64,000 nucleotides of DNA from Streptomyces sp. HNM0574 (GTDB lineage: Bacteria > Actinomycetota > Actinomycetes > Streptomycetales > Streptomycetaceae): assembly GCF_012726235.1 (NCBI RefSeq), contig NZ_JAASAH010000018.1, positions 62,001-126,000 on the forward strand. The letters are read 5' to 3'. Below, one piece after another: positions 56,541 to 64,000 of the stretch. Within the stretch, counting starts at the first letter, position 1; every line of letters starts with the position of its first letter. The notes beneath the pieces are model-generated. The model made no database searches and was not told where the DNA came from. It was given only the letters and a program-made list of their open reading frames with translations. The translations under genes and the position numbers were made by a program.

Positions 56541-57038
56541 CTACTGCTGGAACATCTCCGCCGGCAGCGGTTTGAGCAGGGCGTACAGGTCGCTGGTGAT
56601 GGGGCGGTCCCAGCTGGCGATGGTCACCAGGACGCCGTCGCTGCGGTCGAACTGGACGCAGGAGATGCGGTCTTCGGACAGCTTGACGCGGCGGACGATG
56701 AGGAGGTTGTCCTCGTGCATCACCGGGTCGTCCTCGACGCCGAGCACCTCGACCGGCTCGTCGTTCTCCAGGGCCTCCAGCAGCTGCTGGACCTCGAAGG
56801 GGGCCTGGCCCTCGTCGACCTCGCGGGCGGGCGAACCCTCGGGGAGGTTACCGATGATCATGGCGGGGCCGCGCCCGCCGAAGAGGTCGTACCGGAGGAA
56901 GACGCCCTGGCAGGTGCCGTCCGGAGCGGGCAGCAGGCCCGCGCCCAGATTGCCCGGCCAGTCGGTCGGGTCCATGGCCAGGACGTCGAAGTCCGGACCT
57001 GCGGGCACGGCGGCGCTGCGGCGGCGGAGGAACGACAT
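56541..57038 (-). CDS. SseB-like / conserved small actinobacterial protein
   Basis: 165 residues from ATG 57038; ATG 57047 is alternative. The sequence is acidic and globular (DFDVLAMDPTDWPGNLGAGLLPAPDG, GVFLRYDLFGGRGPAMIIGNLPEGS, CVQFDRSDGVLVTIASWDRPITSDLYALLKPLP). I know homologues as conserved hypothetical proteins of Streptomyces and the SseB label is tentative. TACCAT ends seven bases before ATG 57038, which would allow a leaderless mRNA. It faces the amidase gene. The function is unknown. Confidence 0.72.
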   Translation of the reverse strand: MSFLRRRSAAVPAGPDFDVLAMDPTDWPGNLGAGLLPAPDGTCQGVFLRYDLFGGRGPAMIIGNLPEGSPAREVDEGQAPFEVQQLLEALENDEPVEVLGVEDDPVMHEDNLLIVRRVKLSEDRISCVQFDRSDGVLVTIASWDRPITSDLYALLKPLPAEMFQQ

Positions 57039-57075
57039 GACCTCCATGGTACGTGGCACCCGCGGTGACCTGCCG

Positions 57076-57106
57076 CCGGGCCGGACCGCCGCAGCGGGCG
57101 GCCCGG
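57076..57106. terminator. Hairpin after the DUF397 gene
   Basis: CCGGGCCG (57076-57083) pairs with CGGCCCGG (57099-57106), 15-base loop, just downstream of the DUF397 stop on the minus strand. The stem is short, so confidence is moderate. Confidence 0.35.
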
Positions 57107-57118
57107 GGCCGTACCGGC

Positions 57119-57424
57119 TCAGGTCAGGTCGAAGCGGCCGTCGCGGGCGCCGTGCACGAAGGCGTTCCACTCCCCCGGGGCGAAGATCACGGCGGGGACG
57201 TCGGGCGTCCCCGCGTTCCGCATCGCGATCCAGCCCTCGACGAAGGCGATCTCGACGTCTCCCCTGCCCTGGCTGCCGGACTGCCAGCGGGCGCCGCTGA
57301 GGTCGAGGTCGGGCCGCGGCGCCGGCGTCCGCACCGCGGTGCCCGTCGCTGCGCTTCCGGTCGCTGCCGTACTGGTCACGGGCGTGCCGGTCACTGCCGT
57401 GCTCGTGATGGTGCGGTCGGCCAC
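57119..57424 (-). CDS. DUF397 protein with a low-complexity N-terminus, orphan
   Basis: 101 residues from GTG 57424 behind GGGAGGAG. The C-terminal 55 residues are a DUF397 domain (GARWQSGSQGRGDVEIAFVEG, then DVPAVIFAPGEWNAFVHGARDGRFDL). The first 40 residues are a Thr/Ala/Val repeat (TSTAVTGTPVTSTAATGSAATGTAV in sequence), made by an approximate 21-base DNA repeat and unlike the short N-termini of most family members. DUF397 proteins normally sit beside a helix-turn-helix gene whose product they antagonise. No such partner adjoins it here. Confidence 0.85.
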   Translation of the reverse strand: MADRTITSTAVTGTPVTSTAATGSAATGTAVRTPAPRPDLDLSGARWQSGSQGRGDVEIAFVEGWIAMRNAGTPDVPAVIFAPGEWNAFVHGARDGRFDLT

Positions 57425-57560: not shown

Positions 57561-58742
57561 TCAGGACGTGGGCGGTTCGGCGCCGACGAGCCACATGGCG
57601 AAGAACTGCGAGCCGCCGCCGTACGCGTGCCCGAGCGCCCGTCGCGCGCCCTCGACCTGGTGCTCCCCCGCCTGCCCGCGCACCTGGAGCGCGGCCTCGG
57701 CGAAGCGCAGCATCCCGGAGGCGCCGATGGGGTTGGTGGAGAGCACCCCGCCCGAGGGGTTGACGGGCAGGTCGCCGTCGATCTCGGTGGCTCCGGACTC
57801 GGTGAGCTTCCAGCCCTCGCCCTCGGCGGCGAAGCCCAGGTTCTCCAGCCACATCGGCTCGTACCAGGAGAACGGGACGTACATCTCGACGGCGTCGATC
57901 TCCCGCCGGGGGTCGGTGATCCCGGCCTGGCGGTAGACGTCGGCCGCGCAGTCGCTGCCCGCGCGGGGCGAGACGGCGTCCTTCCCCGCGAAGAGTGTCG
58001 GCTCGCTCCGCATCGCCCCGCCGTGCACCCAGGCGGGCGGGCGCGGGGCGCGCCGGGCGCCGTCGCGGCCCGTGAGGACCATGGCGCAGGCGCCGTCGGA
58101 GGAGGGGCAGGTCTCGGAGTAGCGGACCGGGTCCCACAGCATCGGCGAGGAGCGCACCTTCTCCAGCGTGATGTCGTGCTCGTGGACGTGCGCGTAGGGG
58201 TTCTTCAGCGCGTTCCTGCGGTCCTTGTAGGCGACGAGGGAGCCGACGGTGTCCGGTGCCCCGGTGCGCCGCATGTACGCGCGCACGTGCGGCGCGAAGA
58301 AGCCGCCGGCGCCGGCGAGCAGCGGCTGCTGGAAGGGGACGGGCAGCGACAGGCCCCACATGGCGTTGGACTCGGACTGCTTCTCGAAGGCGAGGGTGAG
58401 GACGGTGCCGTGCACCCGGGCGGCGACGAGGTTGGCCGCCACCAGCGCGGTGGAGCCGCCGACGGAGCCCGCGGTGTGCACGCGCAGCATGGGCTTCCCG
58501 GTGGCGCCGAGGGCGTCGGCGAGGTAGAGCTCGGGCATCATGACGCCCTCGAAGAAGTCGGGCGCCTTGCCGATCACGACGGCGTCGACGTCGGCCCAGT
58601 CGAGCCCCGCGTCGTCGAGCGCCCGCCGGGCCGCCTCGCGGACGAGTCCGGCGAGGGAGACGTCCCGGCGGGCCGAGGCGTGCTGCGTCTGGCCGATCCC
58701 GACGACGGCCACGGGCTCCTTGTGCGTGGTGCTGCCGCTCAT
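57561..58742 (-). CDS. Thiolase-fold protein, lipid-transfer/Ltp type, no nucleophilic Cys
   Basis: 393 residues from ATG 58742. The thiolase fold is clear (VAVVGIGQTQHASARR, VNPSGGVLSTNPIGASG, ALGHAYGGGSQFFAMW). At the site of the nucleophilic Cys the sequence is TAGSVGGSTAL, with Ser or Gly instead of Cys. In the second motif His is replaced by Asn (STNPIG). A normal thiolase reaction is therefore unlikely. Relatives work as aldolases in steroid side-chain cleavage (Ltp2 with a DUF35 partner). It is the last of a minus-strand series with a second thiolase-fold protein, a DUF35 protein and probably the crotonase. Confidence 0.85.
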   Translation of the reverse strand: MSGSTTHKEPVAVVGIGQTQHASARRDVSLAGLVREAARRALDDAGLDWADVDAVVIGKAPDFFEGVMMPELYLADALGATGKPMLRVHTAGSVGGSTALVAANLVAARVHGTVLTLAFEKQSESNAMWGLSLPVPFQQPLLAGAGGFFAPHVRAYMRRTGAPDTVGSLVAYKDRRNALKNPYAHVHEHDITLEKVRSSPMLWDPVRYSETCPSSDGACAMVLTGRDGARRAPRPPAWVHGGAMRSEPTLFAGKDAVSPRAGSDCAADVYRQAGITDPRREIDAVEMYVPFSWYEPMWLENLGFAAEGEGWKLTESGATEIDGDLPVNPSGGVLSTNPIGASGMLRFAEAALQVRGQAGEHQVEGARRALGHAYGGGSQFFAMWLVGAEPPTS

Positions 58743-59803
58743 TCCGCCTCTCCCCCTTCGAGGACCGCGACGAGGTTCTGCTGGAGGCACGGCCCCGAGG
58801 TGGCGTGTGCCAGTGCGCGCCGGGACTCGCCCCGGTGGATGCGGGCCGCGGCCTCGCCGATGCGGATGAGCCCGGCGGCCATCATCGGGTTCGCGCCGAG
58901 GGCGCCGCCGGACGGGTTGACGGTCACGTCCGGCTGTCCGTCCAGCCGGAGGGCCTTGCGCAGGACGAGTTCCTGGGCGCTGAACGGGGCGTGCAACTCG
59001 GCGGTGTCCACGGGCCGTTCGAAGGCTCCGGCGCGTTCGGCGGCGAGCCGGGCGGAGGGCGAGTCGGTGAGGTCGCGGACGCCGAGGCCGTGCGCCTCGA
59101 TGCGGTGGTCCATGCCCGTGATCACGGCGGGCCGCTCGCAGAGCCGGCCGGCGACGTCCCCGGCGGCGAGGATCACGGCGGCCGCGCCGTCGCCGACGGG
59201 CGGGCAGTCGGCCGCCCGGAGCGGTGCCACGACGTAGTCCTCGGAGGCCGGCGCGGCGCTCCGCTGCGCGTACGGGTTGGCCCCGGCGTCCCGGTGGCTG
59301 CGGGAGGCGACGCCGGCGAACGCGGCCTCGTCCGCCTCGCCGGTGTCCATCAGGGCCCGGGCCTGGAGGGCGGCGAGGGAGACGGAGTCGGGCCAGAGCG
59401 GCGCCGTGTAGTACGGGTCGAGCTGGCGGGTGAGGACGTCGCGGAGCTCGCCGGGCGAGGACTTGCCGTAGGAGTAGACGAGTGCCGTGTCGGCCTCGCC
59501 GGTGAGGATCTTGACCCAGGCCTCGTACAGCGCCCAGGCCCCGTCCATCTCGACGTGCGACTCGGAGACGGGGGGCCAGGCGCCGACGCCGTCGAGGGTC
59601 ATGGTGAAGGAGAAGGCGCGGCCGGCGAGATAGTCGCAGGAGCCCGAGCAGGTGAAGTCGATCTCGCCGGTGGTGAGTTGTGTGCGCTCGAGGACCTCGC
59701 GGAGGACGGGCATGAGCATCTCGACCTCCGAGAGCTCGTCCGCCGCCCGCACGTGCCGGGTCTGGGCGAAGGCCACGACGGACACCTCGCGTGCGGGCCG
59801 CAT
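58739..59803 (-). CDS. Thiolase-like protein, second subunit, no nucleophilic Cys
   Basis: 354 residues from ATG 59803 behind GGAGGTG. The fold is again thiolase-like (VSVVAFAQTRHVRAADE, VNPSGGALGANPMMAAG, ALAHATSGPCLQQNLVAVLEG). The Cys position reads SHVEMDGAWAL, with Glu in place of Cys, the sequence typical of Ltp-like partners. A C-terminal Cys in SGPCLQQN is kept. Its stop overlaps the next gene's start (ATGA) and its ATG overlaps the DUF35 stop by one base, so the three proteins are made in equal amounts and probably form one complex. Confidence 0.85.
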   Translation of the reverse strand: MRPAREVSVVAFAQTRHVRAADELSEVEMLMPVLREVLERTQLTTGEIDFTCSGSCDYLAGRAFSFTMTLDGVGAWPPVSESHVEMDGAWALYEAWVKILTGEADTALVYSYGKSSPGELRDVLTRQLDPYYTAPLWPDSVSLAALQARALMDTGEADEAAFAGVASRSHRDAGANPYAQRSAAPASEDYVVAPLRAADCPPVGDGAAAVILAAGDVAGRLCERPAVITGMDHRIEAHGLGVRDLTDSPSARLAAERAGAFERPVDTAELHAPFSAQELVLRKALRLDGQPDVTVNPSGGALGANPMMAAGLIRIGEAAARIHRGESRRALAHATSGPCLQQNLVAVLEGGEAE

Positions 59804-60771
59804 CACAGCACCTCCTTGTAGTCGTCCCAGTCGGCGTCGGGTTCGCCGGTGGGGCGGTAGTGGTCGGGGAAGCGGCCGTCCTCGGTCCACACGGGTTCGA
59901 CGCGCAGCCCCATCCGCACCTGTTCGTAGGGGATTCCGGCGACGCGGCCGTGCAGCGCGAGCCCGGCGCCGTCGAGGGCGATGTGGGCGTAGACGTAGGG
60001 GACTTCGATGTCCAGGTTCTTCGCCTTGATGTTGACGACGCAGAAGGTGGTCACCGTGCCCCTGGGCCCGCACTCGACGCGCTCGCCGGTGGGGACGCCG
60101 CAGGTGGGGCAGGCGCCGCGGGGCGGTACGTAGACCTTGCGGCACTCGGGGCAGCGTTCGCCGACGATCCGGCGCTCGGCGAGGGCGTGGATGTACCGGG
60201 TCTGGGCGCGGCCGGGGGTGTAGGTGTAGTCGAGCCGCGCGGGGGCGACGATCCCGGTGACGGGGTCGGTGAACTCGCCGCTGTGCGCGCGGGGTCCGGC
60301 GTCCGGGGGGCCTTCCGCGTCCGCCGGTTCGAAGCAGGCGATGTCGGTGATGGCGCCCTGCCGCTCCCCGGCCCAGCGGACGCGGACCCGCATGCCGGTG
60401 CGCACGGCCTCGGGGCCCGGTGCGTCGAGGGCGTGCAGGAGCGCGGTGTCGGCGCCGTCGAGGCGGACGAGGACCCAGGCGAAGGGGGTGTCCAGGGGCT
60501 GTCCGGCGCGGGGCCGCGGGTTCCAGGCCCAGGTGGTGACGGTGCCGGTGGGAGCGACCTCGACGAGTTCGCTCAGCTCCTCGGCGGTGTCCGGGTCGTA
60601 CTCGGCGGGCGGCACGAGCACCCGGCCCGACGTGCCGCGCACGCCCAGGACGGTGCGCTCGCGCAGGCCGGTGAGGAAGGCGCTCTGGACGGACCCGAGG
60701 GAGCGGGTGAAGGGGAACTCGACGACCAGGGGTGCGCTGAGGGTCTCCGGCGGGGAGGCGTGCGACGTCAT
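59803..60771 (-). CDS. Tandem DUF35/OB-fold protein with one zinc ribbon
   Basis: 322 residues, GGAGATC upstream. Two OB-type halves: the first (about 60-150, TGTVTTWAWNPRP, FAWVLVRLDGADTALLHAL) has no zinc ribbon, the second has CPECRKVYVPPRGACPTC (about 206-223) and then GTVTTFCVVNIKAKN, VPYVYAHIALDGAGLALHGRV. DUF35 proteins bridge thiolase-fold partners, as in Ltp2-ChsH2, PhlACB and the archaeal thiolase/HMG-CoA synthase complex, and shuttle CoA substrates. It is therefore predicted to hold the two thiolase-like proteins encoded directly behind it. Confidence 0.87.
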   Translation of the reverse strand: MTSHASPPETLSAPLVVEFPFTRSLGSVQSAFLTGLRERTVLGVRGTSGRVLVPPAEYDPDTAEELSELVEVAPTGTVTTWAWNPRPRAGQPLDTPFAWVLVRLDGADTALLHALDAPGPEAVRTGMRVRVRWAGERQGAITDIACFEPADAEGPPDAGPRAHSGEFTDPVTGIVAPARLDYTYTPGRAQTRYIHALAERRIVGERCPECRKVYVPPRGACPTCGVPTGERVECGPRGTVTTFCVVNIKAKNLDIEVPYVYAHIALDGAGLALHGRVAGIPYEQVRMGLRVEPVWTEDGRFPDHYRPTGEPDADWDDYKEVL

Positions 60772-60813: not shown

Positions 60814-61614
60814 TCAGGCGCGGCGGTAGACCGGGGGGCGTTTCTCGGCGAAGGCGCGGGCGCCCTCCTTGGCGTCCGCGGTGCCGAACACGGGCCAGCC
60901 GCGCTCCAGTTCGGAGGCGAGCGCGTCCTCCTCGGTCATCCCGGCGGTCTCGTAGACGGACGCCTTGACGGCCTCGACGGCCAGTGGGGCGCAGGCGTTG
61001 ACGCGCTCGGCGATCTCCAGGGCGCGCTCCAGCGCGGCGCCCTCGGGGACGACGTGCCCGACGAGTCCGATCCGCGCGGCCTCCTCGGCGCTGTAGGGGC
61101 GTCCGGTGAGGAGCATCTCCAGGGCGTGGGTGCGCGGGATCTGGCGCGGGAGCCGGACGGTCGAGCCGCCGATGGGGAAGAGTCCGCGGCGTACCTCGAA
61201 GAGTCCGAAGGTGGCGGTCTCGGCGGCGACGCGGATGTCGGTGCCCTGGAGGATCTCGGTGCCGCCGGCCACGCAGTGGCCCTCGACGGCCGCGATGACG
61301 GGCTTGCGCGGGCGGTGGTGCCGGAGCATCGCCTTCCAGTGCAGGTCGGGGTCGGCCTTGAGGCGGTCGCGGTACTGCTCGCCGGCCATGCCGTCCCCGG
61401 CGAGGGCCTTGAGGTCCATGCCCGCGCAGAACACTCCGCCGGAGCCGGTGAGGACGACGGAGCGGACGGCGTCGTCCTCGTCGGCCTCCTCCCAGGCGTC
61501 GTGGAGTCCGACGAGCATGGGGAGCGACAACGCGTTCTTGGCCTCCGGACGGTCGAGGGTGAGGACGAGGGTCGCGCCCTCGCGCCGTGTCGTCAGGTGT
61601 TCCGTACCGCCCAT
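60814..61614 (-). CDS. Enoyl-CoA hydratase/isomerase (crotonase family)
   Basis: 266 residues from ATG 61614 with AAGGA upstream. LDRPEAKNALSLPML, GSGGVFCAGMDLKAL (oxyanion hole), AAVEGHCVAGGTEILQGTDIRVAAETATFGLFEVRRGLFPIGG (second oxyanion hole and substrate Glu positions, shown in parts) and EARGAFAEKR-type end ARAFAEKRPP are crotonase hallmarks. It hydrates or isomerises an enoyl-CoA. It lies 42 bases before the DUF35 gene and is divergent from an acyl-CoA synthetase, so it is a step between activation and cleavage of a CoA-bound acid. Confidence 0.9.
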   Translation of the reverse strand: MGGTEHLTTRREGATLVLTLDRPEAKNALSLPMLVGLHDAWEEADEDDAVRSVVLTGSGGVFCAGMDLKALAGDGMAGEQYRDRLKADPDLHWKAMLRHHRPRKPVIAAVEGHCVAGGTEILQGTDIRVAAETATFGLFEVRRGLFPIGGSTVRLPRQIPRTHALEMLLTGRPYSAEEAARIGLVGHVVPEGAALERALEIAERVNACAPLAVEAVKASVYETAGMTEEDALASELERGWPVFGTADAKEGARAFAEKRPPVYRRA

Positions 61615-61688: not shown

Positions 61689-61705
61689 TCTGACAGGCAG
61701 TCAGA
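61689..61705. promoter_or_regulatory. Palindrome in the crotonase/acyl-CoA synthetase divergent region
   Basis: TCTGAC-AGGCA-GTCAGA has perfect six-base arms, flanked by T-rich stretches (TTTCTGAC and CAGATTTTTC), a contrast to the GC-rich surroundings. It lies 74 bases upstream of the crotonase start and 142 upstream of the synthetase start. A TetR-like repressor of acyl-CoA genes would be expected to bind such a site. Confidence 0.5.
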
Positions 61706-61846: not shown

Positions 61847-63475
61847 GTGGAGTACAACCTTGCCGACCTGTTCGAGTCGGTCGCCGACACCGTCCCGGAC
61901 CGCGAGGCGCTGGTGTACGCCGACCATCCGGGCACCGGCGCCGAACGGCGCCTCACCTACCGGCAGCTGGACGCGGCGGCGAACCGGATCGCCCACCATC
62001 TCGCGGACAGCGGGGTGCGTCCGGGCGAGCACGTCGGGCTGCATCTGTACAACGGCGTCGAGTACCTCCAGACGGCGCTCGCCTGCCTGAAGATCCGCGC
62101 CGTGCCGGTGAACGTCAACTACCGCTACGTCGAGGAGGAACTGGTCTACCTCTACCGGGACGCCGACCTGGTGGGGCTCGTCTTCGACGGCGAGTTCACC
62201 GGGCGGGTCGCCGCCGCGCTGCCCCGCACCGAGCGGCTGCGGCACCTGGTACGGGTCGGCCCGGCGCCGGAAGGGGCGCCCCAACCGGCGCTCGCGCCCG
62301 TGGACTTCGCCGCCGCCGAGGCGTCCGGCTCGCCGGAGCGGGGCTTCCCGCGCCGCTCCGGGGACGACCAGATCATCATCTACACCGGCGGCACCACCGG
62401 CATGCCCAAGGGCGTGATGTGGCGGGCCGAGGACATCTTCTTCTCCGGGATGGGCGGCGGCGACCCCACGGGGACGCCCGTCTCCCGGCCCGAGGAGCTG
62501 GCCGAGCGGGTCGCGGCCGGCGGTGCGGGCCTGGTGTTCTTCCCCACCCCGCCGCTGATGCACGGCACCTCGACGCTGACCGCGTTCATCGGCCTGCACT
62601 TCGGCCAGAAGCTGGTGCTGCACCGGAAGTTCGTGCCGGAGGAGGTGCTGCGCACCGTCGAGCGGGAGCGGGTCACCGCCGTCTCGCTGGTCGGCGACGC
62701 GATGCTGCGCCCGCTGACGGACGCGCTGCGCGGCCCGCTCAGGGGCACCGACTGCTCCTCGCTGCTGGCCGTCTCCAGCTCCGGCGCCGTCCTCTCCGAG
62801 ACCGTACGGGCCGGCTTCGCCGAGCTCGTGCCGCACGCGATGCTGATCAACAACTTCGGCTCCTCGGAGTCCGGCTTCAACGGCACCGCGACCGCCGACT
62901 CCGGCCCCGAGAAGGGCTTCCGCATCCAGGTCAACTCCGGTACGGCGGTGGTCGATCCGGCCACCCGGCGCCCGGTGGAACCGGGCGGCACGGGCCGGGT
63001 CGCGCTGCGCGGGCACGTCCCGCTGGGCTACTACAACGACCCGCAGAAGACGGCCGAGACCTTCTTCGAGGCGGACGGGGCCCGCTGGGTGCTGCTGGGC
63101 GACATGGCGACGGTCGGCGAGGACGGTGTCGTCACCGTGCTCGGGCGCGGCTCGCAGTGCATCAACACCGGCGGCGAGAAGGTCTTCCCCGAGGAGGTCG
63201 AGCAGGCGCTCAAGGCGCACCCCGATATCTACGACGCGCTGGTCGCCGGGGTGTCCGACCCCCGCTGGGGCTCGCGGGTCACGGCCGTCGTCCAGCCCAG
63301 GCCGGGCGCGGCGCCGCTGACGGAGGACGCCGTGCGCGCGCACTGCCGCGGGCGGCTGGCCGGGTACAAGGTGCCGCGCACGGTGGTGCTCAGCGACCAC
63401 ATCCAGCGCTCCCCCAGCGGCAAGGCCGACTACCGCTGGGCGAAGGCCGTCGCGGAGCGCGGCTCCGGTGCCTGA
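61847..63475 (+). CDS. Acyl-CoA synthetase (AMP-forming)
   Basis: 542 residues, GTG start. The AMP-binding signature IIYTGGTTGMPKGVMW, the NNFGSSESGFN acyl-adenylate region, LGDMATVGEDG (hinge with Asp), NTGGEKVFPEEVE and the C-terminal PSGKADYRWAKA with the catalytic Lys are all present. It activates a carboxylic acid as acyl-CoA via acyl-AMP. It is divergent from the crotonase gene and followed, with an eight-base overlap, by a reductase gene. Together they suggest the start of a degradation route for a branched, cyclic or steroid-like acid. Confidence 0.92.
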   Translation: MEYNLADLFESVADTVPDREALVYADHPGTGAERRLTYRQLDAAANRIAHHLADSGVRPGEHVGLHLYNGVEYLQTALACLKIRAVPVNVNYRYVEEELVYLYRDADLVGLVFDGEFTGRVAAALPRTERLRHLVRVGPAPEGAPQPALAPVDFAAAEASGSPERGFPRRSGDDQIIIYTGGTTGMPKGVMWRAEDIFFSGMGGGDPTGTPVSRPEELAERVAAGGAGLVFFPTPPLMHGTSTLTAFIGLHFGQKLVLHRKFVPEEVLRTVERERVTAVSLVGDAMLRPLTDALRGPLRGTDCSSLLAVSSSGAVLSETVRAGFAELVPHAMLINNFGSSESGFNGTATADSGPEKGFRIQVNSGTAVVDPATRRPVEPGGTGRVALRGHVPLGYYNDPQKTAETFFEADGARWVLLGDMATVGEDGVVTVLGRGSQCINTGGEKVFPEEVEQALKAHPDIYDALVAGVSDPRWGSRVTAVVQPRPGAAPLTEDAVRAHCRGRLAGYKVPRTVVLSDHIQRSPSGKADYRWAKAVAERGSGA

Positions 63476-64000
63476 CGGTCCCGCGGGCGGGGCGCGGCCG
63501 CTGCCCGCGCCGCCCGACCCGTTCGCCCCCGCCCGGCTCGGACCGCTGACGCTGCGGAACCGGCTGCTGAAGGCCGCGACCTTCGAGGGACGCACCCCGG
63601 AGGGGCTGGTCACGGACGAACTCGTCGCCTTCCACCGGGACATCGCCGCGGGCGGCGCCGCGCTGACCACCGTCGCGTACTGCGCCGTCGCGCCGGAGGG
63701 CCGCACCGAGCGGCGGCAGATCGTGATGCGGCCCGAGGCGGCGCCGGGGCTGCGGGAGCTGGCCCGGGCCGTGCACGGCGAGGGCGCGGCCGTCGCGGCG
63801 CAGCTCGGGCACGCGGGCCCGGTGGCCGACGCGCGCTCCAACCGGGCGCAGGCGCTCTCCGCCTCGCGCCGGCTGTCGCCGCTCAGCGGGCGGTTCGCGC
63901 GGGCGGCGACCGAGGACGACTTGGCGCGCGTCGTACGGGGGCACGCGGACGCGGCGGAGCTGGCCGCCGAGTGCGGATTCGACGCGGTGGAGCTGCACTT
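63468..64000 (+). CDS. NADH:flavin oxidoreductase, Old Yellow Enzyme family (5' part)
   Basis: 177 residues are visible, cut by the window end. The start GTG 63468 lies eight bases inside the previous gene. PFAPARLGPLTLRNRLLKAATFEG, then YCAVAPEGRTERRQIVM and VAAQLGHAGPVAD are the first strands of the FMN-binding TIM barrel; FDAVELHF is the beginning of the motif that continues with the substrate-binding region. It probably reduces an activated alkene such as a 2-enoyl or dienoyl compound made in this pathway. Confidence 0.85.
   Translation, partial: MPDGPAGGARPLPAPPDPFAPARLGPLTLRNRLLKAATFEGRTPEGLVTDELVAFHRDIAAGGAALTTVAYCAVAPEGRTERRQIVMRPEAAPGLRELARAVHGEGAAVAAQLGHAGPVADARSNRAQALSASRRLSPLSGRFARAATEDDLARVVRGHADAAELAAECGFDAVELH

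Follow-up and report, generated by a model that had tools for sequence, protein, structure and literature searches.

Removal of branched sterol side chains is assigned, in a review (PMC6678751), to Ltp3-Ltp4, a heteromeric aldol-lyase that follows FadD19 and cuts the C24-C25 bond in the side chains of campesterol and sitosterol, and two other papers present Ltp3 and Ltp4 as aldol-lyases that are essential for branched side-chain breakdown (PMC6273163) or mediate it (PMC8708139). The corresponding mycobacterial genes follow the order Rv3515c, Rv3516, Rv3518c, Rv3519, Rv3520c, Rv3521, Rv3522 (ltp4), and Rv3523 (ltp3) in a further source (PMC6429209). Moreover, two steroid aldolases with a DUF35 partner are described in PMC12329534: Ltp2-ChsH2, in which Tyr294 is the base and Tyr344 the acid, and Sal-Shy, which employs Tyr302 and Cys304. 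Here, we analyze a stretch of 64,000 nucleotides from Streptomyces sp. HNM0574 (contig NZ_JAASAH010000018.1, positions 62,001 to 126,000), hereafter the window, in which three consecutive genes for a DUF35 protein and two thiolase-fold proteins, thA and thB, would very probably be the Streptomyces version of Rv3521-ltp4-ltp3, the heteromeric retro-aldolase of sterol side-chain breakdown. Judged from the genes, this trio most likely removes the C24-branched side chains of plant-type sterols. Enzyme sets of this kind are already known from relatives of the tuberculosis bacterium; new here are the genus-wide co-occurrence with unlinked Ltp2, CYP125, and IpdA genes, with KshA being rare, and a palindrome in the fadD19/echA19 promoter.

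Sub-family and gene neighborhood of the trio

This identity is favored because of the sub-family of the subunits, their gene neighborhood, the loss of thiolase residues, and the joint presence and absence with CYP125, Ltp2, and IpdA. Both thiolase-fold subunits score above the cut-off of their sub-family models (Table 1), which are tied to Ltp3 and Ltp4 through the gene order of a class relative (genome G038, locus L137). In this relative, the genes are arranged as FadD19(-), EchA19(+), CYP142(-), x(+), LLM(-), DUF35(+), thA(+), and thB(+), with KshA(+) further on, and the order and strands of the trio block equal those of the Rv3515c to Rv3523 listing, where we take the suffix "c" to mark the other strand and Rv3526 to be kshA. 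The L137 CYP142 gene has its best PDB match at 1e-219 and reaches CYP142 of Mycobacterium tuberculosis (Mtb) at 4e-200, the KshA gene matches PDB 2zyl/4qck (3-ketosteroid 9α-monooxygenase) at 2e-220, the EchA19 gene passes the EchA19 equivalog model (429 bits, cut-off 400), and the FadD19-position gene matches the same model, NF005863, as the FadD19-type gene of the window.

In the window, thA and thB likewise have an Rv3521-type DUF35 gene, echA19, and fadD19 as linked genes. Relative loci were collected by one scan of genome contigs, from which the best 80 loci were kept; nearly all belong to Streptomyces, the others being from Microtetraspora, Streptantibioticus, and "Actinobacteria bacterium OV450." The linkage fadD19-echA19-DUF35-thA-thB is more than chance, since all five genes are present in each of the 68 full-length relative loci. 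Also, on a plasmid of Tsukamurella tyrosinosolvens, the trio stands beside "steroid 3-ketoacyl-CoA thiolase," P450, and CoA-transferase genes. The initial annotation had proposed an aldolase or acyl-transfer complex acting after the neighboring synthetase and crotonase, with sterols among the possible substrates, and did not recognize the set as one already known. Orthology to Ltp3/Ltp4 with FadD19 and EchA19 gives good support to an aldolase that works with the adjoining CoA ligase and hydratase, the sterol guess appears right and can be narrowed to the C24-branched side chain, and the acyl-transfer option finds no support.

The trio was also seen on plasmid records, L153 of Streptomyces clavuligerus and L151 of Tsukamurella, and therefore may move between replicons.

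Co-occurrence with unlinked steroid genes

Other steroid-type genes are found elsewhere in the same genome. A chsE-chsH2-chsE-chsH1-ltp2 operon with a YDHF motif (names by reading) lies on another contig, and its Ltp2 scores 654 bits against a model cut-off of 469. The CYP125 gene, at 1e-158 to Mtb CYP125 in the PDB, adjoins a steroid 3-ketoacyl-CoA thiolase (683 bits, cut-off 515), and an IpdA-like CoA-transferase is also present. Further thiolase-fold genes near DUF35 domains occur at L158:7956-9140, L158:9175-9627, and L156:4996-6168, and the C7 thiolase-fold gene, which has a YDAF motif, passes the Ltp2 model (NF005892, 574 bits, cut-off 469).

The presence of thA, Ltp2, CYP125, IpdA, KshA, and HsaC was scored in the same 150 genomes, whose genus, Streptomyces, is taken from named relatives. 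For thA, 19 of 124 genomes whose matches were all weak, at E 2e-9 or worse, were removed, and the gene was scored as present where it is in two pieces (G451, G453, and G516) or carries an internal TAG (G485); G465 and G529, whose only match is a weaker paralogue, were removed from 107 genomes in the co-occurrence count. On this basis, thA is present in 105 genomes, Ltp2 in 105, CYP125 in 104, and IpdA in 103. Both thA and Ltp2 are found in 104 genomes, with two discordant cases (148/150 in agreement, phi 0.97), and thA shares 103 genomes with CYP125 (147/150) and 103 with IpdA (148/150). Here, the trio, Ltp2, CYP125, and IpdA genes are spread over different contigs, and in closed genomes long distances mostly separate them, with ~39 kb between thA and IpdA in G407. 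In an rpoB tree that took in 100 of the 150 genomes, namely all 45 that lack thA and 55 selected from those that have it (G396 was excluded because its rpoB is partial), 22 to 25 presence changes are counted per gene versus about 33 with shuffled labels, so that the joint presence and absence is not one clade effect.

Ring-opening genes follow a different distribution. KshA is found in nine of the 150 genomes, and HsaC (query matching PDB 2zi8 at 2.5e-93) is found at 65% identity or more in eight of these nine, the ninth having a 50% match; all lie within the thA set. A whole ring-opening cluster was recognized by reading at L173:8557-19210 of G417 (KshA, HsaA, HsaC, HsaD, and KstD-like), and few genomes have one.

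A conserved palindrome in the divergent promoter

The 13-bp palindrome TGAC-N5-GTCA is found in the fadD19/echA19 divergent promoter of all 76 relative loci, of the 80, in which this promoter could be delimited, with constant arms and a variable spacer. Its longer form, CTGAC-N5-GTCAG, has 28 matches in the genome compared with one for a backward control pattern. Apart from the trio locus, the igr-type operon and the C17 thiolase region carry sites, and another site precedes a second locus of Ltp2-like thiolase and DUF35 genes that has its own amidohydrolase. Further sites stand upstream of genes for a MaoC-like protein, a ligase, an LLM oxidoreductase, a DUF35-like protein, and an acyl-CoA dehydrogenase. 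These gene names were given by reading; some of the genes were also compared with models, and of these, the MaoC-like and LLM genes have no match at the limit used. Coordinates include L157:7866, L158:1254 and 7885, and L156:7144, 8450, and 8474. Other places show no link to side-chain genes, and none was found at the CYP125 and IpdA stretches examined in this genome. The palindrome does not mark the family as a whole, since the mycobacterial-type and Tsukamurella loci showed none close to the trio; one shorter match lies inside each of L136 and L137. The CTGAC-N5-GTCAG sites are likely to form a regulon, many of them standing before acyl-CoA-type genes, and the putative operator may be read by a TetR-type regulator.

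Substrate of the trio

Several points weigh against the assignment to sterol side-chain breakdown. The EchA19-type gene of the window reaches 375 bits with the EchA19 equivalog model, just below the cut-off of 400. The identity is drawn from gene order in class relatives and from the Tsukamurella record, and the function is read from the genes. The sole phylogenetic control for co-occurrence is a tree of a single gene. Moreover, neither KshA nor HsaC at 65% identity or more was found in this genome, and as these ring-opening enzymes are missing, growth of the strain on sterols is doubtful. Finally, the catalytic subunit could be thA, given a conserved acidic residue in its nucleophile column.

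One alternative keeps the fold and the retro-aldol chemistry and supposes that steroid-type enzymes were recruited in Streptomyces for another branched isoprenoid or terpenoid acid. It would fit the 96 of 105 trio-bearing genomes that lack KshA, and the putative operators that precede amidohydrolase, LLM, and additional DUF35/thiolase genes without an obvious sterol role. Nonetheless, we consider it unlikely: the genome retains CYP125, the steroid 3-ketoacyl-CoA thiolase, the igr-type operon, and IpdA; across the genus, the trio is found together with CYP125, Ltp2, and IpdA; and CYP125A13 of Streptomyces peucetius hydroxylates cholesterol, according to a report in which the ring-oxidation genes are still sought (PMC9728343).

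With sterol side chains as the substrate, most Streptomyces might possess a scattered, co-inherited, and partly co-regulated side-chain pathway without opening of rings A/B, consisting of CYP125, FadD19, Ltp3-Ltp4-DUF35, the igr-type Ltp2 operon, and IpdA for rings C/D. They would either strip side chains for carbon or signals and set C19 steroids free, or live on steroids that are already partly degraded, and the aldolase would be a complex of three gene products with a Tyr288/Tyr374 pair on a thiolase fold, unlike either known steroid aldolase. We offer this proposal tentatively. A 2016 survey of steroid pathways records a cholesterol pathway in one of more than 50 Streptomyces and a genus mostly of non-degraders (PMC4810484), and our literature search found no report of a ring-less side-chain module in Streptomyces.

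Candidate catalytic residues and proposed mechanism

The thA and thB proteins are homologous over their full length (profile-profile match of 335 columns, E 1.6e-26). Their residues were compared in 16 diverse relatives of each, plus close sets of 32 (thB) and 34 (thA) sequences. A further alignment included, as a true thiolase from this genome, the steroid 3-ketoacyl-CoA thiolase that adjoins CYP125. The nucleophile region reads HTAGSVGGSTAL in thB, whose TAGSVGGST is invariant in the diverse relatives, and SHVEMDGAWAL in thA, where the diverse relatives show SHV-E/D-M/A-DG/A with no reversion to Cys. The regions of the GHP His read STNPIG and GANPMM, and the Asn at the His column (N337 in thB, N305 in thA) is invariant in all 16 diverse relatives of each protein. 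The third catalytic Cys, that of the CxG motif, is replaced by Tyr374 in thB and by Thr in thA. Since both proteins lack the nucleophilic Cys, the GHP His, and the CxG Cys, and the residues that replace these are conserved, the conclusion that thA and thB are not thiolases, SCP-x thiolases included, is well supported at the level of sequence. The Cys-less pair with Asn for the GHP His in the initial annotation was thus described correctly.

In the proposed sequence of reactions, CYP125 would oxidize C26, FadD19 would form the CoA ester, and a double bond would be hydrated, with EchA19 as a candidate. The Ltp3/Ltp4-type pair would then cleave the C24-C25 bond of the β-hydroxyacyl-CoA in a retro-aldol reaction and release a short acyl-CoA. 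The catalytic subunit would be thB, in which Tyr288, at the NEAF-Asn column of thiolases and the column of TcLtp2 Tyr294 and CtSal Tyr302, may accept the hydroxyl proton, and Tyr374 may protonate the enolate. Tyr288, Asn337, and Tyr374 are invariant in 16/16 diverse and 32/32 close sequences, and Tyr374 is the natural candidate for the acid because it is invariant and thB has neither of the known acids. Tyr288 and Tyr374 are, then, a candidate acid/base pair. At the same three columns, thA has His, Gln, or Tyr; Asn; and Thr, and it would act as a partner subunit without these aldolase residues. Other heteromeric enzymes of the sterol side-chain pathway probably contain inert partner subunits as well.

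The reverse assignment, with thA catalytic through Glu85 in place of the nucleophilic Cys, seems improbable to us. This residue is Glu in 15 of 16 diverse relatives and Asp in the other, and invariant in the 34 close sequences, and the ESHVEMDGAWALYEA block of thA is among the most conserved. Against this, the pairing of Glu85 with the nucleophilic Cys comes from one HMM alignment, the aldolase Tyr column varies in thA and is kept in thB, and thB is the more conserved protein, with a mean column identity of 75% versus 67%. A thiolase or acyltransferase like PhlC of PhlACB, which the initial annotation had allowed, shares the thiolase fold and a DUF35 partner, and PhlC and BbsB are detectable relatives, but the conserved loss of all three catalytic residues makes it extremely improbable.

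AlphaFold2 monomer predictions, whose input relatives were the window and genome contig loci, almost all Streptomyces, gave a predicted local distance difference test score (pLDDT) of 48.8 for thA and 38.4 for thB, too low for use, and no close solved structure of an Ltp3/Ltp4-type protein is among the PDB matches.

DUF35 protein and proposed subunit composition

The DUF35 protein has the zinc ribbon and OB fold of ChsH2-type proteins (Table 1), and its best PDB match is the DUF35 domain of ChsH2 (6ok1_B, 2.7e-9). As the initial annotation had noted, it contains two OB parts and a single ribbon (residues 196-226). BLASTP aligns its two halves at 32% identity (E 2e-14); the C half retains a CPEC-CPTC zinc ribbon with an OB fold, and the N half is degenerate and has lost the ribbon Cys. 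Given the homology of the halves and the ribbon Cys retained in the C half, the protein is an old internal duplication. Of 30 loci examined, one of them partial, 29 could be evaluated: the protein is fused in 21, the window included, and split into two neighboring genes in eight, an arrangement that would be compatible with one half for each thiolase subunit. In the split lineages, the ribbon cysteines are eroding in the C halves of L025, L026, L027, and L032-L035, and L024 is the only one of the eight loci with a full CxxC-CxxC pair.

A three-subunit complex of thA, thB, and the DUF35 protein is plausible because of the translational overlap, the DUF35 partners of Ltp2 and Sal, and the occurrence of the DUF35 halves as two genes elsewhere. 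By analogy with Ltp2-ChsH2 and Sal-Shy, the DUF35 protein would bind the thiolase-fold subunits and shape the cleft. No third subunit for Ltp3/Ltp4 is named in the papers found by our literature search. The gene overlaps, of four bases and one base, agree with those first annotated: the thA stop and thB ATG share four bases (ATGA, 58739-58742), and the DUF35 stop and thA ATG share one (59803, TGATG); an alternative GTG start of thA at 59806 would give an overlap of 4 nt with the DUF35 gene. The crotonase and DUF35 genes are 42 nt apart.

Table 1. Genes and putative operator of the fadD19-echA19-DUF35-thA-thB locus in the window.
Feature	Position	Strand	Length or model evidence
thB, large thiolase-fold subunit, Ltp3-type (NF006180/PRK08313)	57561..58742	-	393 aa; 710 bits, cut-off 514
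thA, small thiolase-fold subunit, Ltp4-type (NF005924/PRK07937)	58739..59803	-	354 aa; 547 bits, cut-off 419
DUF35 protein, Rv3521-type	59803..60771	-	322 aa; PF01796 twice, PF12172 once, above cut-off
Crotonase, EchA19-type, first gene of the operon	60814..61614	-	NF005864, 410 bits, cut-off 316
Palindrome TGAC-N5-GTCA, putative operator	61691..61703	.	Divergent promoter; CTGAC-N5-GTCAG at 61690-61704
Acyl-CoA synthetase, FadD19-type, divergent	61847..63475	+	NF005863, 732 bits, cut-off 543

Downstream of the trio, a conserved neighbor of uncharacterized function (56541-57170, minus strand) is present in 67 of the 68 full-length relative loci. On the other side, an Old-yellow-enzyme-like flavoprotein, named by reading, adjoins the fadD19-type gene (window 63468-64000 and L155:469-1695); it was found beside the trio in none of the 80 relative loci.

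Ltp3 and Ltp4 are of industrial relevance for the conversion of phytosterols into steroid synthons, and the trio is a compact three-gene system for expression. It is of interest for its candidate catalytic pair, for a third subunit that the papers found do not name, and for the possible Streptomyces module without ring opening; if this module is real, a large share of Streptomyces would shorten sterols without degrading the nucleus.

Comparison with known systems

The benzoylsuccinyl-CoA thiolase BbsAB, the archaeal thiolase/HMG-CoA synthase/DUF35 system, and PhlACB share the fold and the DUF35 partner with the trio. However, these are true thiolases, synthases, or acylases with a catalytic Cys, which neither thA nor thB has.

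Closer likenesses are found among the steroid aldolases. Sal of Comamonas and thB share the Tyr302 column, a residue other than His at the GHP column, and a Gly in the nucleophile column (a pairing read from the alignment), whereas Cys304 of Sal corresponds to Pro290 of thB, and the partner of Sal is one protein with a MaoC domain. Ltp2-ChsH2 (PDB code: 6OK1) is likewise a thiolase-fold aldolase with a DUF35 partner, and the Tyr of its YDHF motif, within the Y-D-x-F/Y motif of Ltp2 and Sal, is retained in thB and not in thA. Nonetheless, Ltp2 has one thiolase subunit where the trio has two different ones, its Tyr344 (at the GHP-His column by reading) is replaced by Asn337 in thB, and the Ltp2 of this genome falls outside the thA and thB clades in a tree of thiolase-fold proteins. 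Because the second catalytic residue differs, thB would work like Ltp2 or Sal without being a member of either clade.

Finally, Ltp3 (Rv3523), Ltp4 (Rv3522), and Rv3521 are the nearest counterparts. Unlike the mycobacterial block, the Streptomyces trio has no adjoining cyp142 or kshA, and unlike the Mycobacterium/Rhodococcus setting, most Streptomyces genomes are devoid of the ring-opening genes. The identity with class relatives carrying the mycobacterial-type block is 64 to 69% for thB and 48 to 56% for thA, and the sub-family, the gene order, the strands, the FadD19 and EchA19 neighbors, and the fused two-half DUF35 protein are all the same.

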